From contig JAFSZJ010000074.1 in NCBI GenBank assembly GCA_017458965.1, forward strand, positions 1 to 35,147: DNA of 35,147 nucleotides. The letters are read 5' to 3'. Positions 1 to 35,147 of the stretch are shown here, piece by piece. The position numbers and the translations under genes are program-made. How positions within the stretch are numbered: the stretch's first letter is position 1; each line of letters opens with the position of its first letter. The notes under the pieces are model-generated. The model saw only the letters and a program-made list of their open reading frames with translations, was not told the origin of the DNA and searched no databases. The stretch comes from Kiritimatiellia bacterium (lineage in GTDB: Bacteria > Verrucomicrobiota > Kiritimatiellia > RFP12 > JAAYLN01).

Positions 1-77
1 AGATAAGGGATAATAGCTAATGGATAATAGATATAAGATTTGAGATTTGAAATATGAGATTTGAGATTTGAGGATTT
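1..77. repeat. Heptanucleotide tandem repeat tract A (11 units)
   Basis: Eleven consecutive 7-bp units fit in phase: AGATAAG, GGATAAT, AGCTAAT, GGATAAT, AGATATA, AGATTTG, AGATTTG, AAATATG, AGATTTG, AGATTTG, AGGATTT. The unit drifts from GGATAAT-like to AGATTTG-like without losing the 7-bp register. The tract is AT-rich against a GC-rich background and ends about 33 bp before the mutS start. Its left end may lie outside the window. No promoter could be separated from the repeats. Confidence 0.85.
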
Positions 78-5521: not shown

Positions 5522-6793
5522 CTAGCGGCGCGAGGTGACGCGCTTCTCGTAGTCCTTGCAGTCGAACAGCCAGGCACCGTCGGGCAGAACGCCGTTCTTC
5601 TCGCAGAAGCCGTTCCAGATCGCGCCGAACGGCAGCATGCGGAAGTCCTCCTGCATGGCCAGGCGCCCGGTCAAGTCGCCATCCTTCTCGGCCTTGAGGG
5701 CGCATCCGGGGGTGAGGAGCGCGACGAGAAGCGCCTTGCGGAAGTTGCGGGCGCCGATGGCCCAAGCGGCGACGCGGTTGATGGAGGCGTCGAAGTAGTC
5801 GAGGCCGATGCGCGTCTTGGGAACGAGCCCGCAGCGGACAAGCTCGAAGGCGATGCGGCGCGTCTCGTCGTCGAGGCACACCACATGGTCGCTGTCCCAC
5901 CGCACTGGACGGGATATGTGAAGGGCGATGCCAGGGACGAACGGCGCGATGGCCGACAGCTTGTCGGAGATGACCTCGGTCGGGTGGAAATGCCCGGAGT
6001 CGAGGCAGACGAACTTGCCGCGGCTCACGGCGTAGCCCATGTAGAACTCGTGCGAGCCGACGGTGTAGCTTTCGCATCCCATGCCGAAGAGCTTGGACTC
6101 CACGGAATCGACCGTGAGCGACGCCGGGTACTTGGTCGCGAAGCAGGCGTCAAGCGCCTTCTCCAGACGGAGGCGCGGGGCGAGACGGTCCTCCGGGGTG
6201 TCCTTCGAGCCGTCCGGTATCCAGAAGTTGTCGAGGACGCTCGTCCCGAGGGCCTTGCCTATGGCGCGGGAGATCTCGCGGGCGCGCTTGCCGTGCTCGA
6301 TCCAGAAGTCGCGGACGCCCTTGTCGGGTGAGGAGAGAGTGCATCCGCCCACGACCTTGGGATGCGAGAAGAAGGTAGGGTTGAAGTCGAGGCCGACGCC
6401 TGCGGTCTTCGCCCAGTCGATCCAGTTCGCGAAGTGCTTCGCCGAGATAGCGTCGCGATCGACCTTCCTGCCCGAGCCGAACTCGGCGTAGCAGGCGTGG
6501 AGCGCTATGCGGTTCGCCCCCGGCACGTACGAAAGCATCTTCTCGATGTCGGCGCGCAGCTCCTCGGGGTTGCGGGCCTTGCCTGGGTAGTTGCCCGTGA
6601 CGGCCAGACCGTCGCCGAGGCTGGCGGATTCACCGAGATGCTCGAAGCCGCCGACGTCGTCGCCCTGCCAGCACTGTATGGAGAGCGGGATGTCGAGCAG
6701 CTTGCGCTCGGCCTCCGCCACATCCACGCCGAGTTCGGCGAACTGCTCGGCCGCGACTTCGTATGCCTTTGAAATGAGGTTCTTTTTGGCCAT
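5522..6793 (-). CDS. rhaA: L-rhamnose isomerase
   Basis: This enzyme converts L-rhamnose to L-rhamnulose in the cytoplasm, the first step of the RhaA-RhaB-RhaD pathway. The protein is about 423 residues (E. coli RhaA is 419). Near the N-terminus it has the characteristic SIQCWQGDDVGGFE stretch, followed by NYPGKARN, DFNPTFFSHPK, FWIPDGSKD, LDSGHFHPTEVISDK and FDASINRVAAW, all hallmarks of the family. The ATG at 6793 is preferred over one at 6811 because AGGAG lies 9 nt upstream. It is the first gene of an apparent operon with ruvB, the 7TM-HD gene and ybeY, and diverges from a secreted hydrolase. No rhaB, rhaD or rhamnose regulator is in the window, so it is unusual to find it heading a housekeeping operon. 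Confidence 0.96.
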   Translation of the reverse strand: MAKKNLISKAYEVAAEQFAELGVDVAEAERKLLDIPLSIQCWQGDDVGGFEHLGESASLGDGLAVTGNYPGKARNPEELRADIEKMLSYVPGANRIALHACYAEFGSGRKVDRDAISAKHFANWIDWAKTAGVGLDFNPTFFSHPKVVGGCTLSSPDKGVRDFWIEHGKRAREISRAIGKALGTSVLDNFWIPDGSKDTPEDRLAPRLRLEKALDACFATKYPASLTVDSVESKLFGMGCESYTVGSHEFYMGYAVSRGKFVCLDSGHFHPTEVISDKLSAIAPFVPGIALHISRPVRWDSDHVVCLDDETRRIAFELVRCGLVPKTRIGLDYFDASINRVAAWAIGARNFRKALLVALLTPGCALKAEKDGDLTGRLAMQEDFRMLPFGAIWNGFCEKNGVLPDGAWLFDCKDYEKRVTSRR

Positions 6794-6826
6794 GTTTCTA
6801 TGCTCCTGCATTAAGGATACGCCTCA

Positions 6827-6856
6827 ATCCTAGCAGATGGGGCGCGTCGCCTTCAA
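6827..6856 (-). promoter_or_regulatory. Candidate sigma-70 promoter for rhaA operon
   Basis: Reading the minus strand, TTGAAG (6856-6851) and TAGGAT (6832-6827) are separated by 18 bp. Each matches 4 of 6 consensus positions. Initiation near 6820 would give a leader of about 27 nt containing the AGGAG ribosome site. Assigned by eye. Confidence 0.4.
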
Positions 6857-6869
6857 GCACATTCTGGGA

Positions 6870-6899
6870 TTGTAATCGCAATGGGCCGATTGGTATGAT
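6870..6899 (+). promoter_or_regulatory. Candidate promoter for secreted hydrolase (near-leaderless)
   Basis: TTGTAA (6870-6875) and TATGAT (6894-6899) are separated by 18 bp; the -10 matches 5 of 6 positions. Only 7 bp separate the -10 from the ATG at 6907, so a transcript would start at or next to the start codon. No Shine-Dalgarno is present, in agreement with this. Confidence 0.4.
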
Positions 6900-6906
6900 A
6901 TCCGGC

Positions 6907-8622
6907 ATGAAAACAAGACTTGCCTGCATCATGGGATGCGCGACGGCCGCGATGACGGCGTTCGCGAACTTCGACATAGAGCTGGACATCAAGGCCGCGC
7001 CGATCAGGGACGTGCGCACCTCGACCTGCGGGCCGGTCATCGGCTACGCCGGCTCCGTGCAGAGCATAGCGTCATCCATCGGCGGCGACACATTCTGGAC
7101 AGTGACCAACAAAATGGAGATGTCGCGCGCCTGCCGCGAGGCCGGTGCCTGGCTCCAGCGCGTCTGGAGCGCCGAGGAGTGGTTCGCCCACGGAGGCGAA
7201 AACCCCTACGACCCGAACTCGACAGACCCAAAGGAGGTCAAGCGCTACAAAAGCTTCAAGAAGACAGACCCCCTGAATATGTTCAAGTTCTGGAAGGACA
7301 ACGACATAAAGGTGCTCTTAACGATCGAGGCGTGGGGCGGAGAGCGCGCGAAGAAGCGCATTATCGACCTCGTTGACTTCATCGTCTCGAACAAGTTCGA
7401 ATCAGTCGTCGCGGGCTTCGAGCTCGGCAACGAAACCTACTTCGCCAGACCCGAGAACGTGGACGGCCTCTGCAAGAACTGGAACGAGATCATCCCGGAA
7501 ATCAAGAAGCGCATGCCCAAGGTCAACCTCGGCATCCCGATCTGCGAGCTTTTCGAGAACAACCCCGACCTTACGCAAGTCCGCAACCGCATGCTGGAGG
7601 CGGGCGAGATCAAGCGCGACACCTACTTCGCGGCCGGCTACTTCAACCAGACTTCGGCGCGCATGATCATCAACCTCAAGCCGAGCATGGACATGATCAC
7701 CCACGTCATCTACCACGCCTACGGCACGGAGACGCCCTATAGCTGCACCTACTACGGCATGCAGCGCTTCCGCAACTTCGCCGAGGCGTTCCCAGAGATC
7801 AAGGGCAAGAAATACTGGCTAACCGAGATCCGCCCCCGCTCCGACGAGGACGATCGTTGCCAGCGCCTCTTCCGCGAGTCGCTCATCATGTCGCACTACG
7901 CGCTCACGATGATCTGCCAGCCGGACGTCGACGGCTACAACCACCACCAGCTCTATGAGATTGCCGGAGGACTCTACATCTCAAGCGGCAAGGGCTGGCC
8001 CGTCCAGTGGCGCGACGGCGGCGGCGACTACCCCGACTACCGTGCGCCCTACAACCTGCCGCGCCTTGAGGTCGGTTCGATGGGCGTTGCATACCGCATA
8101 TACACGGAGGCGATCAAGCAGCACCCGCTCGTCCTCGCCCACGGCACCTTGAAGGAGGCGAACACCGAGGACACGTTCTTCACCTCCGCCCGCGTCGCCG
8201 ACGAGGTCTACGCCCACCGCCGCGCCCTAAAGGAAGGCCGCAAGCCGCCGAAGGTCAAGGGCGAAGTCGAGTGGACCGCCCTCGCCAACGCGAACCGCAA
8301 CCAGATATGCTTCCTCATGGTCAACTCCAAGCAGACGCCCGAGACCATCAAGGTCAGCATCCCCGGCAAGCAGTTCGCCGCCCCGACGTACGTGACGCTT
8401 TCCTGCCCCGAGAAGTTCCTCGACAGGCGCGACGTCCCCGGCGACGGCAAGGCGTGGTCGCAGCTATCCTGGGAGGACACCCAGACGGGCTACGACATCA
8501 TCGGAATGGAGCCTTATGTGGGCATGAAGCCATACTGCGACACGATGACCATAACGATCGAGCCGAACACGATCCAATCCGTCACCGTGGTTGTTCGTAA
8601 TACCCCGCAGCCAAAGAAGTAG
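6907..8622 (+). CDS. Secreted clan GH-A-like glycoside hydrolase candidate
   Basis: This is a 571-residue protein with a signal peptide (MKTRLACIMGCATAAMTAFA). The middle looks like a TIM-barrel hydrolase. GFELGNE (Glu near residue 176) resembles the NE acid/base motif at the end of beta-strand 4 in clan GH-A. KYWLTEIRPR (Glu near residue 307) resembles the nucleophile strand 7, preceded by HVIYHAYG. The last 120 or so residues look like a beta-sandwich. The pattern recalls GH39, GH51 and GH79-type enzymes, but no specific family could be assigned. Divergence from rhaA suggests plant or host glycan use; the substrate is unknown. The ATG at 6907 is chosen over 6895 because the signal peptide begins there. 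Confidence 0.6.
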   Translation: MKTRLACIMGCATAAMTAFANFDIELDIKAAPIRDVRTSTCGPVIGYAGSVQSIASSIGGDTFWTVTNKMEMSRACREAGAWLQRVWSAEEWFAHGGENPYDPNSTDPKEVKRYKSFKKTDPLNMFKFWKDNDIKVLLTIEAWGGERAKKRIIDLVDFIVSNKFESVVAGFELGNETYFARPENVDGLCKNWNEIIPEIKKRMPKVNLGIPICELFENNPDLTQVRNRMLEAGEIKRDTYFAAGYFNQTSARMIINLKPSMDMITHVIYHAYGTETPYSCTYYGMQRFRNFAEAFPEIKGKKYWLTEIRPRSDEDDRCQRLFRESLIMSHYALTMICQPDVDGYNHHQLYEIAGGLYISSGKGWPVQWRDGGGDYPDYRAPYNLPRLEVGSMGVAYRIYTEAIKQHPLVLAHGTLKEANTEDTFFTSARVADEVYAHRRALKEGRKPPKVKGEVEWTALANANRNQICFLMVNSKQTPETIKVSIPGKQFAAPTYVTLSCPEKFLDRRDVPGDGKAWSQLSWEDTQTGYDIIGMEPYVGMKPYCDTMTITIEPNTIQSVTVVVRNTPQPKK

Positions 8623-9604: not shown

Positions 9605-12508
9605 TTATGGTGCATTTGGGAAAACGAATTCCAAATAGAAGGTGTTGTTCGTCTTCCATCGTTGGGTGTATTGCGGAATCAAACCAAGGCGCATAAGAGC
9701 ATATTTATCCTTGCCACGATCCATGTAATGTATGCCGCAAGTGCAGTTGTTATGACCATTGTACTTGGCGGATGCCGTAGGTACGAGTCCCATTGAGTGA
9801 CAGCATTCGTGGAGAGCAACCTGGGCGATGTAGTCCGATATCAAATCGGCTGAAAGAGGCAATGGCACATTGCGCCAGTCGTTTGTGGGATTAACGGACC
9901 CGCCTGTGTCGAGATAAAAAGATCGGTATTGCTCTGGCAGAGACTCACGGATTGTTCCGTCGTACACATACGCAGCCCCCAATGGCGAGTCGTTGCGTTG
10001 ATGGCAGTGTTCATTGGGGGTGCGTCCGAGGGCGCTGGTGTACCGTCCCGTTGCCGGATTCGTATATCTGCCGGTCTGAATAACGATGGTTTTGTGCGGT
10101 TGGGGAACGTTGGCGTCAGGCCCGACGACGACGATGTTGGCGCTTGGCGGGAAGATGGCCTGCACCTTTGCCGCTATGTCCGCGAATGCTGATGCGGCTT
10201 CCTGCGCCGTACAGCCGGCGAAGATGGTCACGTTCGTCGGCGGGAGCGTATTTGCGCCGGGATAGTCGAATACTATCGGCTGGCGGAACTCCTCAAGCAC
10301 GGCGGCGTCCCATGTGATCTGGACGTACTGCGGGATGGCAACCGTCGAGGACTGCTCTTCTACGACATTGCCATTCGCGTCGAGGATTCGGCCCTTGACC
10401 GTCGCGAAGGGAGGCGGGACGTACTGGCCAGCCGCGACCGCCGGAAGGGCGCGGGCAAAGGTCGTGTTGGCATCGTACACGAGCGAGTCCGTGCCGTCCA
10501 CGAGGGGCGCGGATGATGTCGCCTTCATGTCCCATTCCAGCGAGTGATGTCGGCCACCGGAAACACGCGTCCGCCTTTGGGTGCCGGGGGTTGACGGGTC
10601 GGTGTCGATCCAGGCGAGGTGCTGCCAGCCAGTCGCCGTTTCTCGTCCCGCCTCGGCCTCGATCATGTACTCCTCCTCGTCGTCAAGCGGGTGCCCGCAA
10701 GACGGATATGACACGTCAATCACCGTGTTGCTCGGGGATTGGGAGACTTCAACGCCCATGTGGTCGCGGCCGCCGCAGTACGTCACGATCGCCGTGCCGG
10801 CGAGGCCTTCAGGCGGGTTCGCGCCAACCGCCGCATGAAGCGTGACGGACGACGTCCATCCTTCGCCAAGTCCCGTCACCGTTGCGGACAACTTGTCGTC
10901 GGCAACCGCGACGTGACCGGTCATGTATTCAGGATCGAAAGTCCAGTTGAGCCTTTCGGCCAGTCCGGGGGTGTCCGGGATGCAGTGCGCAGTCACGAGG
11001 GCGCTTTGGCCCCTATGGACCACCTGCATCGTCGGGTAGAGGAACACACATGGCGCGTAGATGGTCGCACCGCCGCCACGGGATCCGCCGACTTCCATGC
11101 CGCCGCGCAGGGGCGGCGGGGGCGCATCGTAGGCCGTTGTGCAACTTGCAAAGACATTATCCCCGTTATCGACAAAGACGCCATCGCCCCCTTCAAGGGA
11201 GAGCCGGACGGGCAGCCCAGCCGTCCGCAGCTCAACGTTCCACACGGTTCCCGTCGGTATTGCGAAGGTCCATGAGTTCGTTTCGCAAAGCAGAAGCGGC
11301 AGGTCGCCAACCCGGAGAACAGCGCGATTGCCAATGGGCGTGGGGGCGTCGAGGCGCACTGTCACGGCGCGGTCGCCGGGCTGCGCGATGAAAAGCCGGT
11401 GGGCATAGTATGAACCCTGCGACCATCCGTCGGGGATGCCATCGTTGTCGGAGTCGGGATTGTTCGGGTCGGTGGCACCGTTCACCTCGTCATAGTCCGT
11501 CAGCCCGTCGCCGTCGGTGTCGGCGCGGCGCGGGTCGGTATGCGTCTGCATGATCTCCTGCCAGTCGGTGAGACCGTCACCGTCCGTGTCGCAGGTTCCA
11601 TCTCCCAAGTCGCCGATGTAGGACCAGTGGACAGTGGTTAGAGGATAGTCGTTAGTGGTTAGTGAATTGGAGGAGTTGGGAGTGGAGGAGTGGAGGAGTT
11701 GGGCGGTGCCGTTGCGGAAGAGGCCTATGGAGGTGGAGGAGTTGGGGAGTGGAGGAGTGGGTGAGTAGCTGTAGATGACGTCGCCGTCTTCGCGGAACTC
11801 GGCCTGGAAGGAAACTGGCGTTGCCGGGTCGCGGTCAAGCAGGGCGTTTTCCCATGTTATGACGCGCGTTCCGCTGTCCGTGACGGCGGTCCAGATGCGG
11901 GACTGGCAATGATCGTTCCATCGGCTTGCGGGAAGGAAGCCATACGAACTCTGAAGCGGCGCATAGACCGTTATGTTGGAATAGGTCGTGTAGAGCGCCA
12001 GCTCTTCAATGGGGATGCCGGGGGCGGGCGACTTGACCGTGATGGTGCCGTCGGTCTGTATCCAAACCGGGTTCGCCGACGCAATGCCGTTCGTGAAGGC
12101 GTCGAAGAGCCAGAAGCCGTCATTGTGCGCCCCGCGCCGCGCAATGCGCTCGGCGAGTTGCGCGCCTTCCGGCATCGTGAAGTCGTGCGTCTCGTTCGTG
12201 GCAACGGACGATATGGAGTACCCGGTCAGCTGCGCTATTGCGGAAAAGGCGTTTGTGCAAAGCGTGGTGAGAGCCGGGGTGATGGAACGCAGTCCCTCGC
12301 CAATCATTCCGCCCAGTTGCTTGCTGGAGCCGTATGCGAAGACGGCGATGAAGAAAGCCAGAGCCACGGACTGCGCGAAGCGCGAAAGACCGCGCCACCC
12401 GTGCAAGAGCGGCGCGAACGCGCCGTGACGATAGGCTCGATATGCGAAGGGCGCGACCGTCAGAAGCGCCAGCAAGATAGCAAAGATTTGACGCACGAGA
12501 CTTGTCAT
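9605..12508 (-). CDS. Large membrane-anchored surface protein with TSP3 repeats and terminal HExxH motif
   Basis: This 967-residue protein has two N-terminal hydrophobic segments (about residues 7-22 and 44-60), so it is probably membrane-anchored with the bulk outside. A beta-rich region follows, then a thrombospondin type-3-like calcium-binding run (DTDGDGLTDWQE, DTDGDGLTDYDE, DSDNDGIPDGW; about residues 310-365), then several beta-domains. Near the C-terminus, HECCHSMGLVP (residues 900-910) is a zinc-peptidase HExxHxxG motif, followed by a Cys-rich stretch and HYMD, which could be a Met-turn. The position where metzincins have the third His is Pro here, so catalysis is uncertain. A heptamer repeat tract is translated within the protein around residues 245-290. 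It overlaps the upstream gene as ATGA and is followed after 9 bp by the TIMP-like gene. Confidence 0.75.
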   Translation of the reverse strand: MTSLVRQIFAILLALLTVAPFAYRAYRHGAFAPLLHGWRGLSRFAQSVALAFFIAVFAYGSSKQLGGMIGEGLRSITPALTTLCTNAFSAIAQLTGYSISSVATNETHDFTMPEGAQLAERIARRGAHNDGFWLFDAFTNGIASANPVWIQTDGTITVKSPAPGIPIEELALYTTYSNITVYAPLQSSYGFLPASRWNDHCQSRIWTAVTDSGTRVITWENALLDRDPATPVSFQAEFREDGDVIYSYSPTPPLPNSSTSIGLFRNGTAQLLHSSTPNSSNSLTTNDYPLTTVHWSYIGDLGDGTCDTDGDGLTDWQEIMQTHTDPRRADTDGDGLTDYDEVNGATDPNNPDSDNDGIPDGWSQGSYYAHRLFIAQPGDRAVTVRLDAPTPIGNRAVLRVGDLPLLLCETNSWTFAIPTGTVWNVELRTAGLPVRLSLEGGDGVFVDNGDNVFASCTTAYDAPPPPLRGGMEVGGSRGGGATIYAPCVFLYPTMQVVHRGQSALVTAHCIPDTPGLAERLNWTFDPEYMTGHVAVADDKLSATVTGLGEGWTSSVTLHAAVGANPPEGLAGTAIVTYCGGRDHMGVEVSQSPSNTVIDVSYPSCGHPLDDEEEYMIEAEAGRETATGWQHLAWIDTDPSTPGTQRRTRVSGGRHHSLEWDMKATSSAPLVDGTDSLVYDANTTFARALPAVAAGQYVPPPFATVKGRILDANGNVVEEQSSTVAIPQYVQITWDAAVLEEFRQPIVFDYPGANTLPPTNVTIFAGCTAQEAASAFADIAAKVQAIFPPSANIVVVGPDANVPQPHKTIVIQTGRYTNPATGRYTSALGRTPNEHCHQRNDSPLGAAYVYDGTIRESLPEQYRSFYLDTGGSVNPTNDWRNVPLPLSADLISDYIAQVALHECCHSMGLVPTASAKYNGHNNCTCGIHYMDRGKDKYALMRLGLIPQYTQRWKTNNTFYLEFVFPNAP
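11632..11766. repeat. Heptanucleotide repeat tract B inside a coding sequence
   Basis: Plus-strand units in phase from 11632: CAGTGGT, TAGAGGA, TAGTCGT, TAGTGGT, TAGTGAA, then GGAGTTG/AGTGGAG-type units to about 11701. A second GGAGGAGTTGG-type tract covers about 11729-11766. The two are separated by about 28 bp of ordinary coding sequence. All of it is read through in frame by the minus-strand HExxH surface-protein gene. Confidence 0.8.
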
Positions 12509-15842: not shown

Positions 15843-15884
15843 TTGTGGTTAGTTGTTAGTCGTCAGTCGTTAGTCGTTAGTACA
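15843..15884. repeat. Heptanucleotide repeat tract C (6 units)
   Basis: Six units in exact phase: TTGTGGT, TAGTTGT, TAGTCGT, CAGTCGT, TAGTCGT, TAGTACA. The TAGTCGT unit is also present in tract B, 4.2 kb away. It is intergenic, in the gap 15606-16038. Confidence 0.85.
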
Positions 15885-18196: not shown

Positions 18197-18451
18197 CGGA
18201 AAAACCGCGAGGCGTTTCCCGCTTCCGGTTTTCATTGGACCGCCGCCTTGCGCGGCGGGTGGATCGGAAAACGGCCCTGTCTGGTACGCGAAACAGCCGA
18301 AATCCCTGTTCCACGCGATGTTCAGGGTGCCGAAACGCCTGACGGACCGCACGCCTCCTCCGGGGGGAAGCGCGAAAACAGGCCGGGGCGCCCACCTGGC
18401 TACAGGGAACATAGGGACGAAAGCGATACGGCCCGATGGGGTTTTTATTTT
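18197..18451 (+). ncRNA. Candidate structured noncoding RNA (unassigned; weak 6S-like resemblance)
   Basis: This is a gene-free stretch between convergent genes, about 255 nt from the predicted start to a TTTTTATTTT tract at 18442-18451. It has several stems. AAAACCG (18201-18207) pairs with CGGTTTT (18226-18232). CCCTGTTCC (18304-18312) pairs with GGAACA-TA-GGG (18406-18416), leaving a 2-nt bulge and enclosing about 93 nt. CCTG-GCTA-CAGG (18395-18406) forms a small hairpin at the 3' side, competing slightly with the long stem. The GCCCACCTGG...CAGGGAACA...AGGGACG segment resembles the 3' half of some 6S RNAs by eye, but the 5' half could not be matched. No SRP, tmRNA or RNase P hallmarks were found. 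Short open frames here are poor. Confidence 0.4.
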
Positions 18452-18459
18452 GCCTCCTC

Positions 18460-18626
18460 ATCCGGAGGTGCGGCATCTTGCCGCGCAGGCGCGGCGTAGG
18501 TCGTCGGGTTATCGGGATATCGGACGGCGGCTGCGCCGCCTTTATCGGGATTTCGCGCCGGGATTTCGGCGCTTCGCTTGGATCGGGATATCCGAAACAA
18601 GCGCGGCGGGACGCCGCACCTCCACA
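18460..18626. repeat. REPIN-like element: inverted pair of REP-like palindromes
   Basis: A REP-like unit at 18460-18486 (CCGGAGG head, then GTGCGGCA-TCT-TGCCGCGC stem-loop) is matched by an inverted copy at 18601-18626, whose minus strand reads GGAGGTGCGGCG-TCC-CGCCGCGC. The A-T pair closing the loop in the first is G-C in the second, preserving the stem. The 110 bp between has further hairpins (GGCGGCTGCGCCGCC) and ATCGGGATAT/ATCGGGATTT repeats. The same unit is in tandem at 28997-29157. No RAYT-type transposase is in the window. Confidence 0.7.
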
Positions 18627-24140: not shown

Positions 24141-24193
24141 AAAGGCGTTGAAGAGCGTTGAAGGGCGTTGAAGAGCGTTGAAGAGCGTTGAAA
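24141..24193. repeat. Decanucleotide tandem repeat (5 units)
   Basis: Five 10-bp units of AAG(A/G)GCGTTG type run in the gap between the convergent barrel fragment and ABC-F gene, immediately left of heptamer tract D. The period equals about one DNA helical turn. No gene is present here. Confidence 0.85.
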
Positions 24194-24223: not shown

Positions 24224-24286
24224 TAGTTAGTCACTCGTCACTCGTACCTCGTCACTCTTCATTCGTCACTCGTACCTCGTACTTCG
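24224..24286. repeat. Heptanucleotide repeat tract D (9 units) covering the ABC-F gene end
   Basis: Nine units in exact phase: TAGTTAG, TCACTCG, TCACTCG, TACCTCG, TCACTCT, TCATTCG, TCACTCG, TACCTCG, TACTTCG. The minus-strand ABC-F gene ends inside the tract: its last eight or so codons and its TGA stop (24261-24259) are made of repeat units. Confidence 0.88.
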
Positions 24287-28977: not shown

Positions 28978-28996
28978 GCCGTATTTGCGGATTGTC

Positions 28997-29157
28997 GCGC
29001 ACACATCCGGAGGTGCGGCATCTTGCCGCGCACATACCCGGAGGTGCAGCATCTTGCCGCGCACACATCCGGAGGTGCGGCGTCCCGCCGCGCACATATC
29101 CGGAGGTGCGGCATCTTGCCGCGCACACATCCGGAGGTGCGGCATCTTGCCGCGCAC
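28997..29157. repeat. Tandem array of five 31-bp REP-like palindromic units
   Basis: The CCGG that starts each head is at 29007, 29038, 29069, 29100 and 29131, an exact 31-bp period. Each unit is GCGCACAYATCCGGAG followed by a GTGCGGCA-TCT-TGCCGCGC stem-loop. Unit 3 has GCGGCG-TCC-CGCCGC, a compensatory base-pair change; unit 2 has one unpaired change (GCAGCA). There are no spacers. The array fills most of the 285-bp gap between fusA and the LemA-operon end. The same unit is at 18460 and, inverted, at 18601. Confidence 0.9.
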
Positions 29158-29197
29158 CCATCCCACACACAAGCCTTGCGCGGAGCGGGCGTGACGA

Positions 29198-33787: not shown

Positions 33788-34558
33788 GTGCACAGACACC
33801 TCGTCACAACGGACGCAATCAGCGCCGGGCGCATCACGCTCGACCGCTCCGAGGCGCGTCACTTCGCGACAGTGCTGCGGCTCGGCGCCGGCGACGACGT
33901 GGAGCTCTTCGACGGCAAGGGTTCGACGGCGCGGTTCCGCATCGTGGCATCCGAGCGCTCTTCGATGACGCTTGAGCGGCAGGGCGACGCCAGGCTCACG
34001 CCTCCGCCGCAATGCCGGCTAATCCTCGGCGCATGCATCAGCAAGGGGAAGCGGATGGACTGGACGATCGAGAAGGCCGTGGAGCTTGGCGCGGCGGAGA
34101 TCATACCGATAGCCTCCCGCTTCTCGGTGGTCCGCGTCGCGGACGACGAGGCCAAGCGTGAACGCTGGGAGCGCATAGCCATCGACGCCGCGAGACAGTC
34201 GTCCGCCGCGTATCTCCCCGAGATCACTGAGCCGATGTCCTTCGACGACGCCATGGCGCGCATAGACGACGGCGATCCGGGCACCGCGATCTTCGCCGGA
34301 GCCCTCCAGCCCGACGCCATCCCGTTACGTGACGCCATCGCCGCCCGCCGCGCCCTCCCCTGCCCCGTCAGACGCGCCGCGTGGCTCGTCGGCCCCGAAG
34401 GCGACTTCTCGCCCGAGGAATATGCGGAAATGCGCCGCCGCTCCTTCAACTTCGTCTCTCTTGGCGACACCGTGCTCCGCACGGAGACGGCCGCCATATA
34501 CGGTCTCTGCGTCCTTGGCGCGGAATACCTAGTAAAGTCTTCAGGAGCAAACTCATGA
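33788..34558 (+). CDS. rsmE: 16S rRNA (uracil-1498-N3)-methyltransferase RsmE
   Basis: RsmE methylates U1498 of 16S rRNA in the 30S subunit, using SAM. The protein is 256 residues with an N-terminal PUA-like domain (HLVTTDAI...RHFATVLRL) and a C-terminal SPOUT fold with trefoil-knot motifs LVGPEGDFSPEEYA and VSLGDTVLRTETAA. The start is a GTG at 33788, one base after the dnaJ stop; an in-frame ATG at 33767 inside dnaJ is less likely. A dnaJ-rsmE neighbourhood is common in bacteria. The stop overlaps the next gene as ATGA. Confidence 0.93.
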   Translation: MHRHLVTTDAISAGRITLDRSEARHFATVLRLGAGDDVELFDGKGSTARFRIVASERSSMTLERQGDARLTPPPQCRLILGACISKGKRMDWTIEKAVELGAAEIIPIASRFSVVRVADDEAKRERWERIAIDAARQSSAAYLPEITEPMSFDDAMARIDDGDPGTAIFAGALQPDAIPLRDAIAARRALPCPVRRAAWLVGPEGDFSPEEYAEMRRRSFNFVSLGDTVLRTETAAIYGLCVLGAEYLVKSSGANS

Positions 34559-35085
34559 TCAAGCTCATACAGAACGCCCTCACCATCCGGAAGGGATCGG
34601 TCAACTTCATGGACCAGAACGGTGTCGTGATCGGCTTCAATCCGAGGCCGGACGGCAACCCGCTCTCCTTCTACGTCTATTCGCGGAACGGCGACCTAGT
34701 CGATACCGGAGACACCTTCATCGAGCAGTACCTGGACGGCGTCCCCTACCATTTCGGCAACGACGGGCACATCATAAAGCACGGCGTGACCTCGGAGGAG
34801 GAGGACAAGCTCATAATCACCCTCGTCCCAGACGATGGCGGAGATCCGCTCACGCTACAGATCGTCTGCATGAACAGCCTCTACTACACCGCGAATTTCG
34901 TCCTCTCGGACAAGGACAGGGTCGCATTCCGCAAGCCGAGCCGCCCCACCGACGCCGAATCGGCGCGCGACTGGCAGCTCGCCGAGATCAACCACGCCAT
35001 GGACGAGCTCGTCCACGCCCGCGAGCAAGTATCGAAGGCCCTCGCCGACCTCGACCTCATCAAGCAGAAGCTGCTGGCAAGATGA
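34555..35085 (+). CDS. Unknown protein, last gene of the grpE-dnaJ-rsmE operon
   Basis: This 176-residue protein has no recognised family. It starts MIKLIQNALTIRKGSVNF and has a beta-rich N-terminal two thirds (FYVYSRNGDLVDTGDTF, GVPYHFGNDGHIIKHGV, DKLIITLVPDDGGDPLTL) and a C-terminal helix likely to form a coiled coil (about residues 135-175, ending ADLDLIKQKLLAR). There is no signal peptide or membrane segment, so it is probably cytoplasmic. The ATG overlaps the rsmE stop as ATGA and has AGGAG 7 nt upstream. Its position and coupling imply co-expression with protein-quality and ribosome genes, but its role is unknown. Confidence 0.8.
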   Translation: MIKLIQNALTIRKGSVNFMDQNGVVIGFNPRPDGNPLSFYVYSRNGDLVDTGDTFIEQYLDGVPYHFGNDGHIIKHGVTSEEEDKLIITLVPDDGGDPLTLQIVCMNSLYYTANFVLSDKDRVAFRKPSRPTDAESARDWQLAEINHAMDELVHAREQVSKALADLDLIKQKLLAR

Positions 35086-35147
35086 TAGATAGTAGATAGC
35101 AGATAGCAGATAGCAGATAATAGATAATAGATAATAGATAATGGATA
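35086..35147. repeat. Heptanucleotide repeat tract E (8.9 units, runs off window)
   Basis: Units in exact phase directly after the TGA stop: TAGATAG, TAGATAG, CAGATAG, CAGATAG, CAGATAA, TAGATAA, TAGATAA, TAGATAA, TGGATA. It is AT-rich and related to the first units of tract A at the left end of the window. With a 7-bp unit containing TAG or TAA, stops appear in all three plus frames. Confidence 0.92.

Follow-up and report, generated by a model that had tools for sequence, protein, structure and literature searches.

Stop-bearing heptamer arrays at gene 3' ends of a Kiritimatiellia bacterium and their possible spread by slippage and template switching

The STRR heptamers of filamentous cyanobacteria are tandem repeats of 7-bp units that differ between genomes. 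In Xanthomonas and Nostoc, heptamers of the types GGGAATC and GGGGA(C/T)T occur genome-wide, and the sections of Rehm et al. (2015; PMC4692102) on which we draw describe a polar arrangement: the repeats are located on the coding strand at most 50 bp from stop codons, overlaps with the stop included, and on the non-coding strand at most 50 bp from start codons; they lie between aligned genes and are rare between divergent ones. For Beggiatoaceae, cyanobacteria and Bacteroidetes, TAACTGA direct repeats have been described, the stop codons of which probably control where copies can lie, and some genomes harbor mixed heptamers (MacGregor, 2015; PMC4679880). As cited in the latter paper, Mrazek (2007) found heptamers to be the commonest long simple sequence repeats in many genomes and proposed slippage as their source, with 7 nt as a contact length of the polymerase.

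The window analyzed here has a length of 35,147 nt and represents an entire contig (C24) of bin G000 (1.75 Mb in 122 contigs, 63% complete, GC content of 63% in the sampled part). The scope of the study is this single incomplete bin, which was sampled as stretches. A first sample of 487 kb was drawn according to contig number and supplemented with one stretch and the window; a further 294 kb was mostly picked for contigs with TAGATAR arrays, so that counts for the resulting 781 kb are enriched. Genes were predicted with a home-made, hexamer-based caller (89% coding), and some of the tests rest on small numbers.

In the initial annotation of the window, five tracts were described as exact arrays in a strict 7-bp register. 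The period of 7 was confirmed for four of them, whereas the tract at 11632–11766 is intragenic and consists mainly of 8-bp repeats (11633–11664 is weakly period 7, with 76% matches, and 11668–11699 and 11733–11766 have a period of 8). "Exact" was too strong, as the TRF matches of the four period-7 tracts are only 78–90%. The terminal array (35080–35147 by TRF) comprises 9.7 copies of TAGATAG, CAGATAG and TAGATAA units with a period of 7 and 90% matches. The last codons and the stop of the gene in front of it (KLLAR at the C-terminus; AGA TGA) lie within a degenerate array unit, and searches of Pfam and NCBIfam with this gene gave no match. At the other end of the contig, the AGATTTG array proper (36–77, period 7, 85%) follows degenerate GGATAAT units, and the whole tract precedes a plus-strand gene at about 110–2621. 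The minus-strand array (period 7, 78%) is a mixture of TCACTCG and TACCTCG, with CGAGTGA carrying a TGA, and the TTAGTCG/TTAGTTG array has 4.9 copies of period 7 with 88% matches. The window also contains a 10-bp array that differs from the heptamers in its period and is similarly placed, and a 6S RNA (RF00013) at 18271–18446 on the plus strand (52.7 bits versus a gathering score of 46.4).

Table 1. Repeat tracts of the window and the gene preceding the terminal array
Feature	Position	Strand	Context	Basis
Degenerate GGATAAT/TAGATAT units, then AGATTTG array	1..77	+	At contig start	TRF, sequence
Weak 7-bp, then 8-bp purine-rich repeats	11633..11766	.	Inside a gene predicted on the minus strand; no clean member	TRF
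TTAGTCG/TTAGTTG array	15848..15881	.	Between divergent predicted genes; exception to the position rule	TRF
10-bp array GCGTTGAAGA	24145..24192	.	16 bp after stop of plus-strand gene	TRF 94%
CGAGTGA/CGAGGTA array	24230..24280	-	Sense to minus-strand gene, overlaps its stop 24259-24261	TRF, sequence, gene end
Predicted gene of no known family	34555..35085	+	Start possibly further upstream (34381)	
Class S (TAGATAR) array	35079..35147	+	Sense, directly after stop of upstream gene, runs off contig end	TRF, sequence, gene context

The genome-wide scan for period 7 that the initial annotation had named as a check revealed a clear excess. The first 487 kb contain 38 period-7 arrays, compared with 0 in a third-order Markov shuffle of this subset, which also lacked arrays of periods 8 and 9. 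In the enriched 781 kb, arrays of period 7 number 83, followed by periods 8 (20 arrays) and 9 (11 arrays); no other period up to 12 is represented by more than 3. Tandem 7-bp units are far above chance, as in heptanucleotide long simple-sequence repeats (LSSR/STRR). The excess of lag-7 autocorrelation is 0.08–0.12 for tandem and convergent spacers; it is 0.016 for divergent ones and −0.018 for coding DNA. The arrays are mainly non-coding, and some lie inside predicted genes. The dominant family has the unit TAGATAR/CAGATAR and is designated class S. A degenerate TAGATAR pattern had 132 overlapping hits in G000, the reversed pattern had none, and the pattern was absent from the 287 other genomes of the class (present in 1 of 288). 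In a related genus (G004), 25 period-7 arrays were found in 291 kb, the main units being GGGAACR, CTAGGGG and CTAACGA, among others, and no such arrays were found in 200 kb of another relative (G001). G000 and G004 both favor period 7 with different units; within one bacterial family, the dominant unit is exchanged and the period is retained. The proposal that the unit changes at a constant period is borne out, and local expansion by slippage, suggested at the same time, is plausible. Some words, such as GTCGAAA, AGTGACG and a GTTGAAA octamer, are common to several genera. In G000, arrays of period 8 form a genuine second class with families of its own (GTTGAAAG, CCAACGGA). The family GTTGAAAG/GAAGGGTT was encountered at L140, L143, L151, L152, L164, L171, L208, L212 and other loci; it often occupies a full codirectional spacer, in either orientation, and is also present in the relatives G004 and G002.

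The placement of the class S arrays in G000 is polar. Upstream of 36 of the 47 arrays lies the 3' end of a sense gene, and for 7 of the 47 it is the 5' end of an antisense gene, so that 36 of the 43 arrays with a gene on this side are in sense. Each of the 26 arrays located within 40 bp of a stop codon is rich in stops on the sense strand and not on the other (binomial p = 3e-8), and for codirectional gene pairs alone the ratio is 17 to 5 (p = 0.017). A stop triplet had been noted in most arrays from the start, and this holds for the majority of arrays next to stop codons. No sense bias was seen for other period-7 units near stops in G000 (n = 8, with 1 sense-only and 1 antisense-only), and 10 of the 13 non-TAGATAR period-7 arrays in front of start codons are pyrimidine-rich on the sense strand. 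Several spacers have the order stop codon, class S array, H1 (a conserved 30-bp hairpin), pyrimidine-rich 7- or 8-bp repeats and ATG. The share of spacer DNA taken up by arrays of period 7 or 8 is 9.7% between tandem genes, 5.9% between convergent genes and 0.6% between divergent genes. This avoidance of the promoter-holding divergent spacers would be expected if ordinary heptamer slippage without any extra rule led to growth anywhere in non-coding DNA, so that placement simply marked promoter-free spacers, and in many genomes no class of long repeats is as common as heptamers (Mrazek, 2007, as cited in PMC4679880). However, such slippage does not predict 26 sense arrays out of 26 at stop codons, nor does it predict the variant order, the hairpins and H1 treated below; already weakened by the strand bias, this explanation is in our view improbable.

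The arrays extend into the coding sequences. In 25 genes, the first array units contain the stop codon or directly adjoin it, and the arrays encode protein ends such as ADSR, IADNR and DGR, each directly before the stop. For several proteins of known families, the Pfam or NCBIfam models stop 3–14 residues short of the C-terminus. LysS of G000 ends with QLKTWQIADNR, the tail being array sequence, and the LysS proteins of five relatives end with QLRN, QLKMREP, QLKAR, QLRQK and QLRN, without an array tail. Three gene junctions could be compared with those of relatives. The same gene follows etfA at a distance of 340 bp in G000 versus 23–71 bp in four relatives, in which etfA has about 15 more codons; in G000, a hairpin arm and an array are found instead. 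The galE spacer has a length of 192 bp in G000 and 39 bp in one relative. For hldE-gmhB, most relatives have the gmhB frame directly at the hldE stop, and in G000 gmhB starts about 124 bp downstream, apparently at an ATG within the degenerate end of the array. At all three junctions, the relatives have no TAGATAR array, and their spacers are short or missing. With the ancestral state deduced from the relatives, the simplest reading is that the longer, array-bearing spacers of G000 would have arisen by insertion. At the hldE-gmhB junction (L298 / L217), the degenerate 3' end of the array, GAGATGTCAGATGG, seems to provide both the gmhB start and the hldE stop. The rnfG junction was discarded as an unclean example, because the following gene is not that of the relatives. 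In the stretch L202 (contig C63 of G000), positions 5626–8423 contain an inverted duplicate of rnfG with its array, which is either a palindromic artefact of the assembly or a genuine inverted duplication.

A further feature is a strong hairpin that abuts the 5' side of 13 of 33 dereplicated class S arrays; none of the 33 has one on the mirrored side, and it is present at 3% of random places (p = 6e-5). Counted per stop codon, the hairpin is present at 19 of 36 class S cases, so that about half of the array-bearing stops have no strong hairpin. The stems preceding the arrays differ from locus to locus. Of the two arms of the etfA hairpin, only the first consists of conserved coding sequence (encoding ASLR), and the hairpins of galE and of an acyltransferase-like gene (L203:9220-10128) resemble it. 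Hairpin arms of this kind match what fold-back copying would leave behind, with one clear and two consistent cases. A T-rich tail follows only 4 of 97 hairpins near stop codons, and the array hairpins run into AGATAR; they do not have the GC hairpin followed by a T tract that is typical of intrinsic terminators. The idea that arrays had split a terminator from its T tract was rejected, as 11 of 40 arrays are followed by TTTT within 45 bp versus 17% of control places, a weak difference.

It might be argued that hairpin, array and H1 together form a selected boundary, i.e., a signal for the end of transcription or translation or a stabilizer of mRNA 3' ends, which is kept for its function. The abutment of hairpins and arrays, the small number of stop-proximal hairpins with a T tract (4 of 97), the scarcity of arrays in divergent spacers and the stop codons in all frames would agree with such a role. 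Arrays also occur within conserved operons, however, where a terminator should harm the expression of the next gene, the class S unit is absent from the relatives, and the strong hairpin is missing at about half of the array-bearing stops. We regard a selected boundary as unlikely.

The class S arrays also have an internal order. GATAG variants come first, GATAA next, and GATGA and others last, with mean relative positions of 0.35, 0.47 and 0.60, respectively, and none of 2000 within-array permutations was as extreme. H1 has 9 copies in G000 (at most 3 mismatches), and, judged by coordinates, every copy closely follows the 3' end of a class S array and shares the orientation of that array. H1 is absent from five family relatives, and a comparison with Rfam left the arrays and H1 of five stretches unmatched, yielding only tRNAs and one 6S RNA. 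The shared variant order and H1 are not accounted for by independent expansion at each locus; copying between loci would account for them.

A rival reading is a dispersed non-autonomous element that consists of a TAGATAR array plus H1 and inserts in sense just 3' of gene-end hairpins, similar to the insertion of class IIC group II introns behind terminators. The heptamers would then be its body, later trimmed and expanded. The occurrence of the class S unit at about 50 loci in a single orientation, the conserved variant order, the presence of H1 only downstream of arrays, the hairpin at the 5' boundary and the absence from other genomes of the class are compatible with such an element. It is at odds with the lack of a constant 5' end, with the many arrays that have no H1, and with the etfA hairpin, which is not ancestral; furthermore, no target duplication was noticed, H1 was not seen with other unit families, and no reverse transcriptase was found in G000, which is 63% complete. 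Taken together, an element of this type is rather unlikely. RVT_1 was found once in G004 and four times in the array-free G001, and Y1_Tnp is present in G000 and likewise in the array-free G001. Across six family genomes, with G000 63% complete, neither family tracks the arrays, which speaks against a reverse transcriptase or a Y1/RAYT transposase as the driver; the suggestion of a protein with a 7-bp step in the initial annotation found no evidence. A GGAG-plus-hairpin palindrome resembling REP (H2, GGAGGTGCGGCGTCCCGCCGCGCA) has 56 copies in G000, 6 in the relative G002 and none in four others; in the window, it occurs at 28992–29163 and 18600–18623, with a 31-bp array of 5.5 copies. The two Y1-transposase matches of G000 could be the RAYT of H2.

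The unit is not confined to this lineage. A TAGATAR-type unit was found in at least 119 stretches of named genomes (Bacteroidales, Clostridia, Chryseobacterium, Serratia symbiotica and others), in which genes were taken as long open frames only. Among the matches listed, the other arrays near these stretches mostly have a period of 7 (65 arrays), the next most frequent periods being 21 (13), a multiple of 7, and 9 and 18 (7 each). Again among the matches listed, sense arrays outnumber antisense arrays in codirectional pairs (53 versus 22, p = 4.5e-4), and 48 of 78 arrays lie within 30 bp of a stop codon. The hairpin rule fails in other phyla (8 of 130 versus 7 of 130 among the matches listed). 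The initial annotation had placed heptamer repeats in filamentous cyanobacteria, a view too narrow given Xanthomonas, Beggiatoaceae and Bacteroidetes (PMC4692102, PMC4679880) and the many phyla among the stretches with the class S unit. The rule on strand and position, the hairpins next to arrays, the ordered variants, H1 and the 8-bp families of G000 go beyond that annotation. In three stretches from Bacteroidetes/Bacteroidales bins (L085, L090 and L061), AGTTAAA-type units follow stop codons and the near-complementary TTTAACT/CTTTAAC units precede start codons, and the entire spacer could fold on itself.

Because the sequence stems from a metagenome bin, the arrays might also be suspected of being assembly artefacts. 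Contig ends lie in 7- or 8-bp arrays in 10 of 104 cases versus 1.75% of random places, arrays are found at or close to both ends of the window, and part of contig C63 is palindromic. Yet most arrays are internal to contigs and lie between intact genes, some of them in conserved order, and the class S unit occurs in named isolates, including the complete genome of Serratia symbiotica (CP002295). Repeats made by the assembly are therefore very improbable. Rather, the assemblies are broken by the repeats: the excess at contig ends indicates that arrays help to fragment the assembly, and the true array lengths are perhaps underestimated.

The reading that we prefer, and to which we give roughly even credence, is that lineage-specific heptamer arrays spread by 7-nt slippage and template switching and are filtered for orientation by selection. 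An array would be seeded at a gene 3' end and would grow in 7-bp steps through slippage and template switching of the polymerase. The junction of gene and array would often be marked by an inverted repeat into which a fold-back switch had copied the gene end, and arrays would be copied from locus to locus. Selection would then filter them by strand and place. In sense, TAGATAR/CAGATAA would offer a stop in every frame within 21 bp, so that such arrays could abut or replace the stop of the gene and add only few residues; antisense arrays would be read through, and pyrimidine-rich units would persist in front of start codons. Several points count against this reading: slippage by itself leaves the shared variant order and H1 unexplained, selection by itself leaves the hairpins unexplained, the other period-7 units near stops in G000 have no sense bias, the hairpin rule fails in other phyla, and fold-back is based on one clear and two consistent cases. 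What we infer from the patterns described above is that slippage with template switching generates the arrays, that they are copied between loci and that selection causes the strand bias. A more general version, in which DNA synthesis copies a gene end into a fold-back hairpin, extends it with stop-bearing 7-nt repeats and thereby makes new gene ends, and in which the same process operates in unrelated phyla and underlies the heptamer excess of bacteria, appears doubtful.

The STRR heptamers share with the arrays of G000 that they form a family of 7-bp tandem units differing between genomes; the lineage and the units are others. For units other than class S, heptamer repeats and such a polar placement have been published before (Rehm et al., 2015; MacGregor, 2015). 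Like the repeats of Rehm et al. (2015), as far as characterized in the sections cited, class S arrays lie on the coding strand near stop codons and are rare in divergent spacers. In contrast to those repeats, TAGATAR/CAGATAR lacks a G tract, is unable to form that quadruplex and contains stop codons; with no G run in the unit, a G-quadruplex explanation was dismissed. Gene-derived hairpins, ordered variants and H1 are features of G000 that the cited sections of PMC4692102 do not describe. Like TAACTGA, the class S heptamer is AT-rich and contains a stop codon on one strand, but TAACTGA mostly forms short sets just upstream of start codons (PMC4679880), whereas class S forms longer arrays just after stop codons; TAACTGA was not among the array units found in G000. 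The strand rule based on stop codons exists in G000, and none is described for the repeats of Mrazek (2007) in the account given in PMC4679880. The present case adds the placement without G tracts, the array-encoded protein ends, the comparisons of junctions, the hairpin boundary, the ordered variants and H1. The case of G000 separates the placement rule from G-quadruplex formation, the arrays supply stop codons and alter the C-termini of proteins, and the hairpin arms and ordered variants are testable clues to the origin and spread of the arrays.
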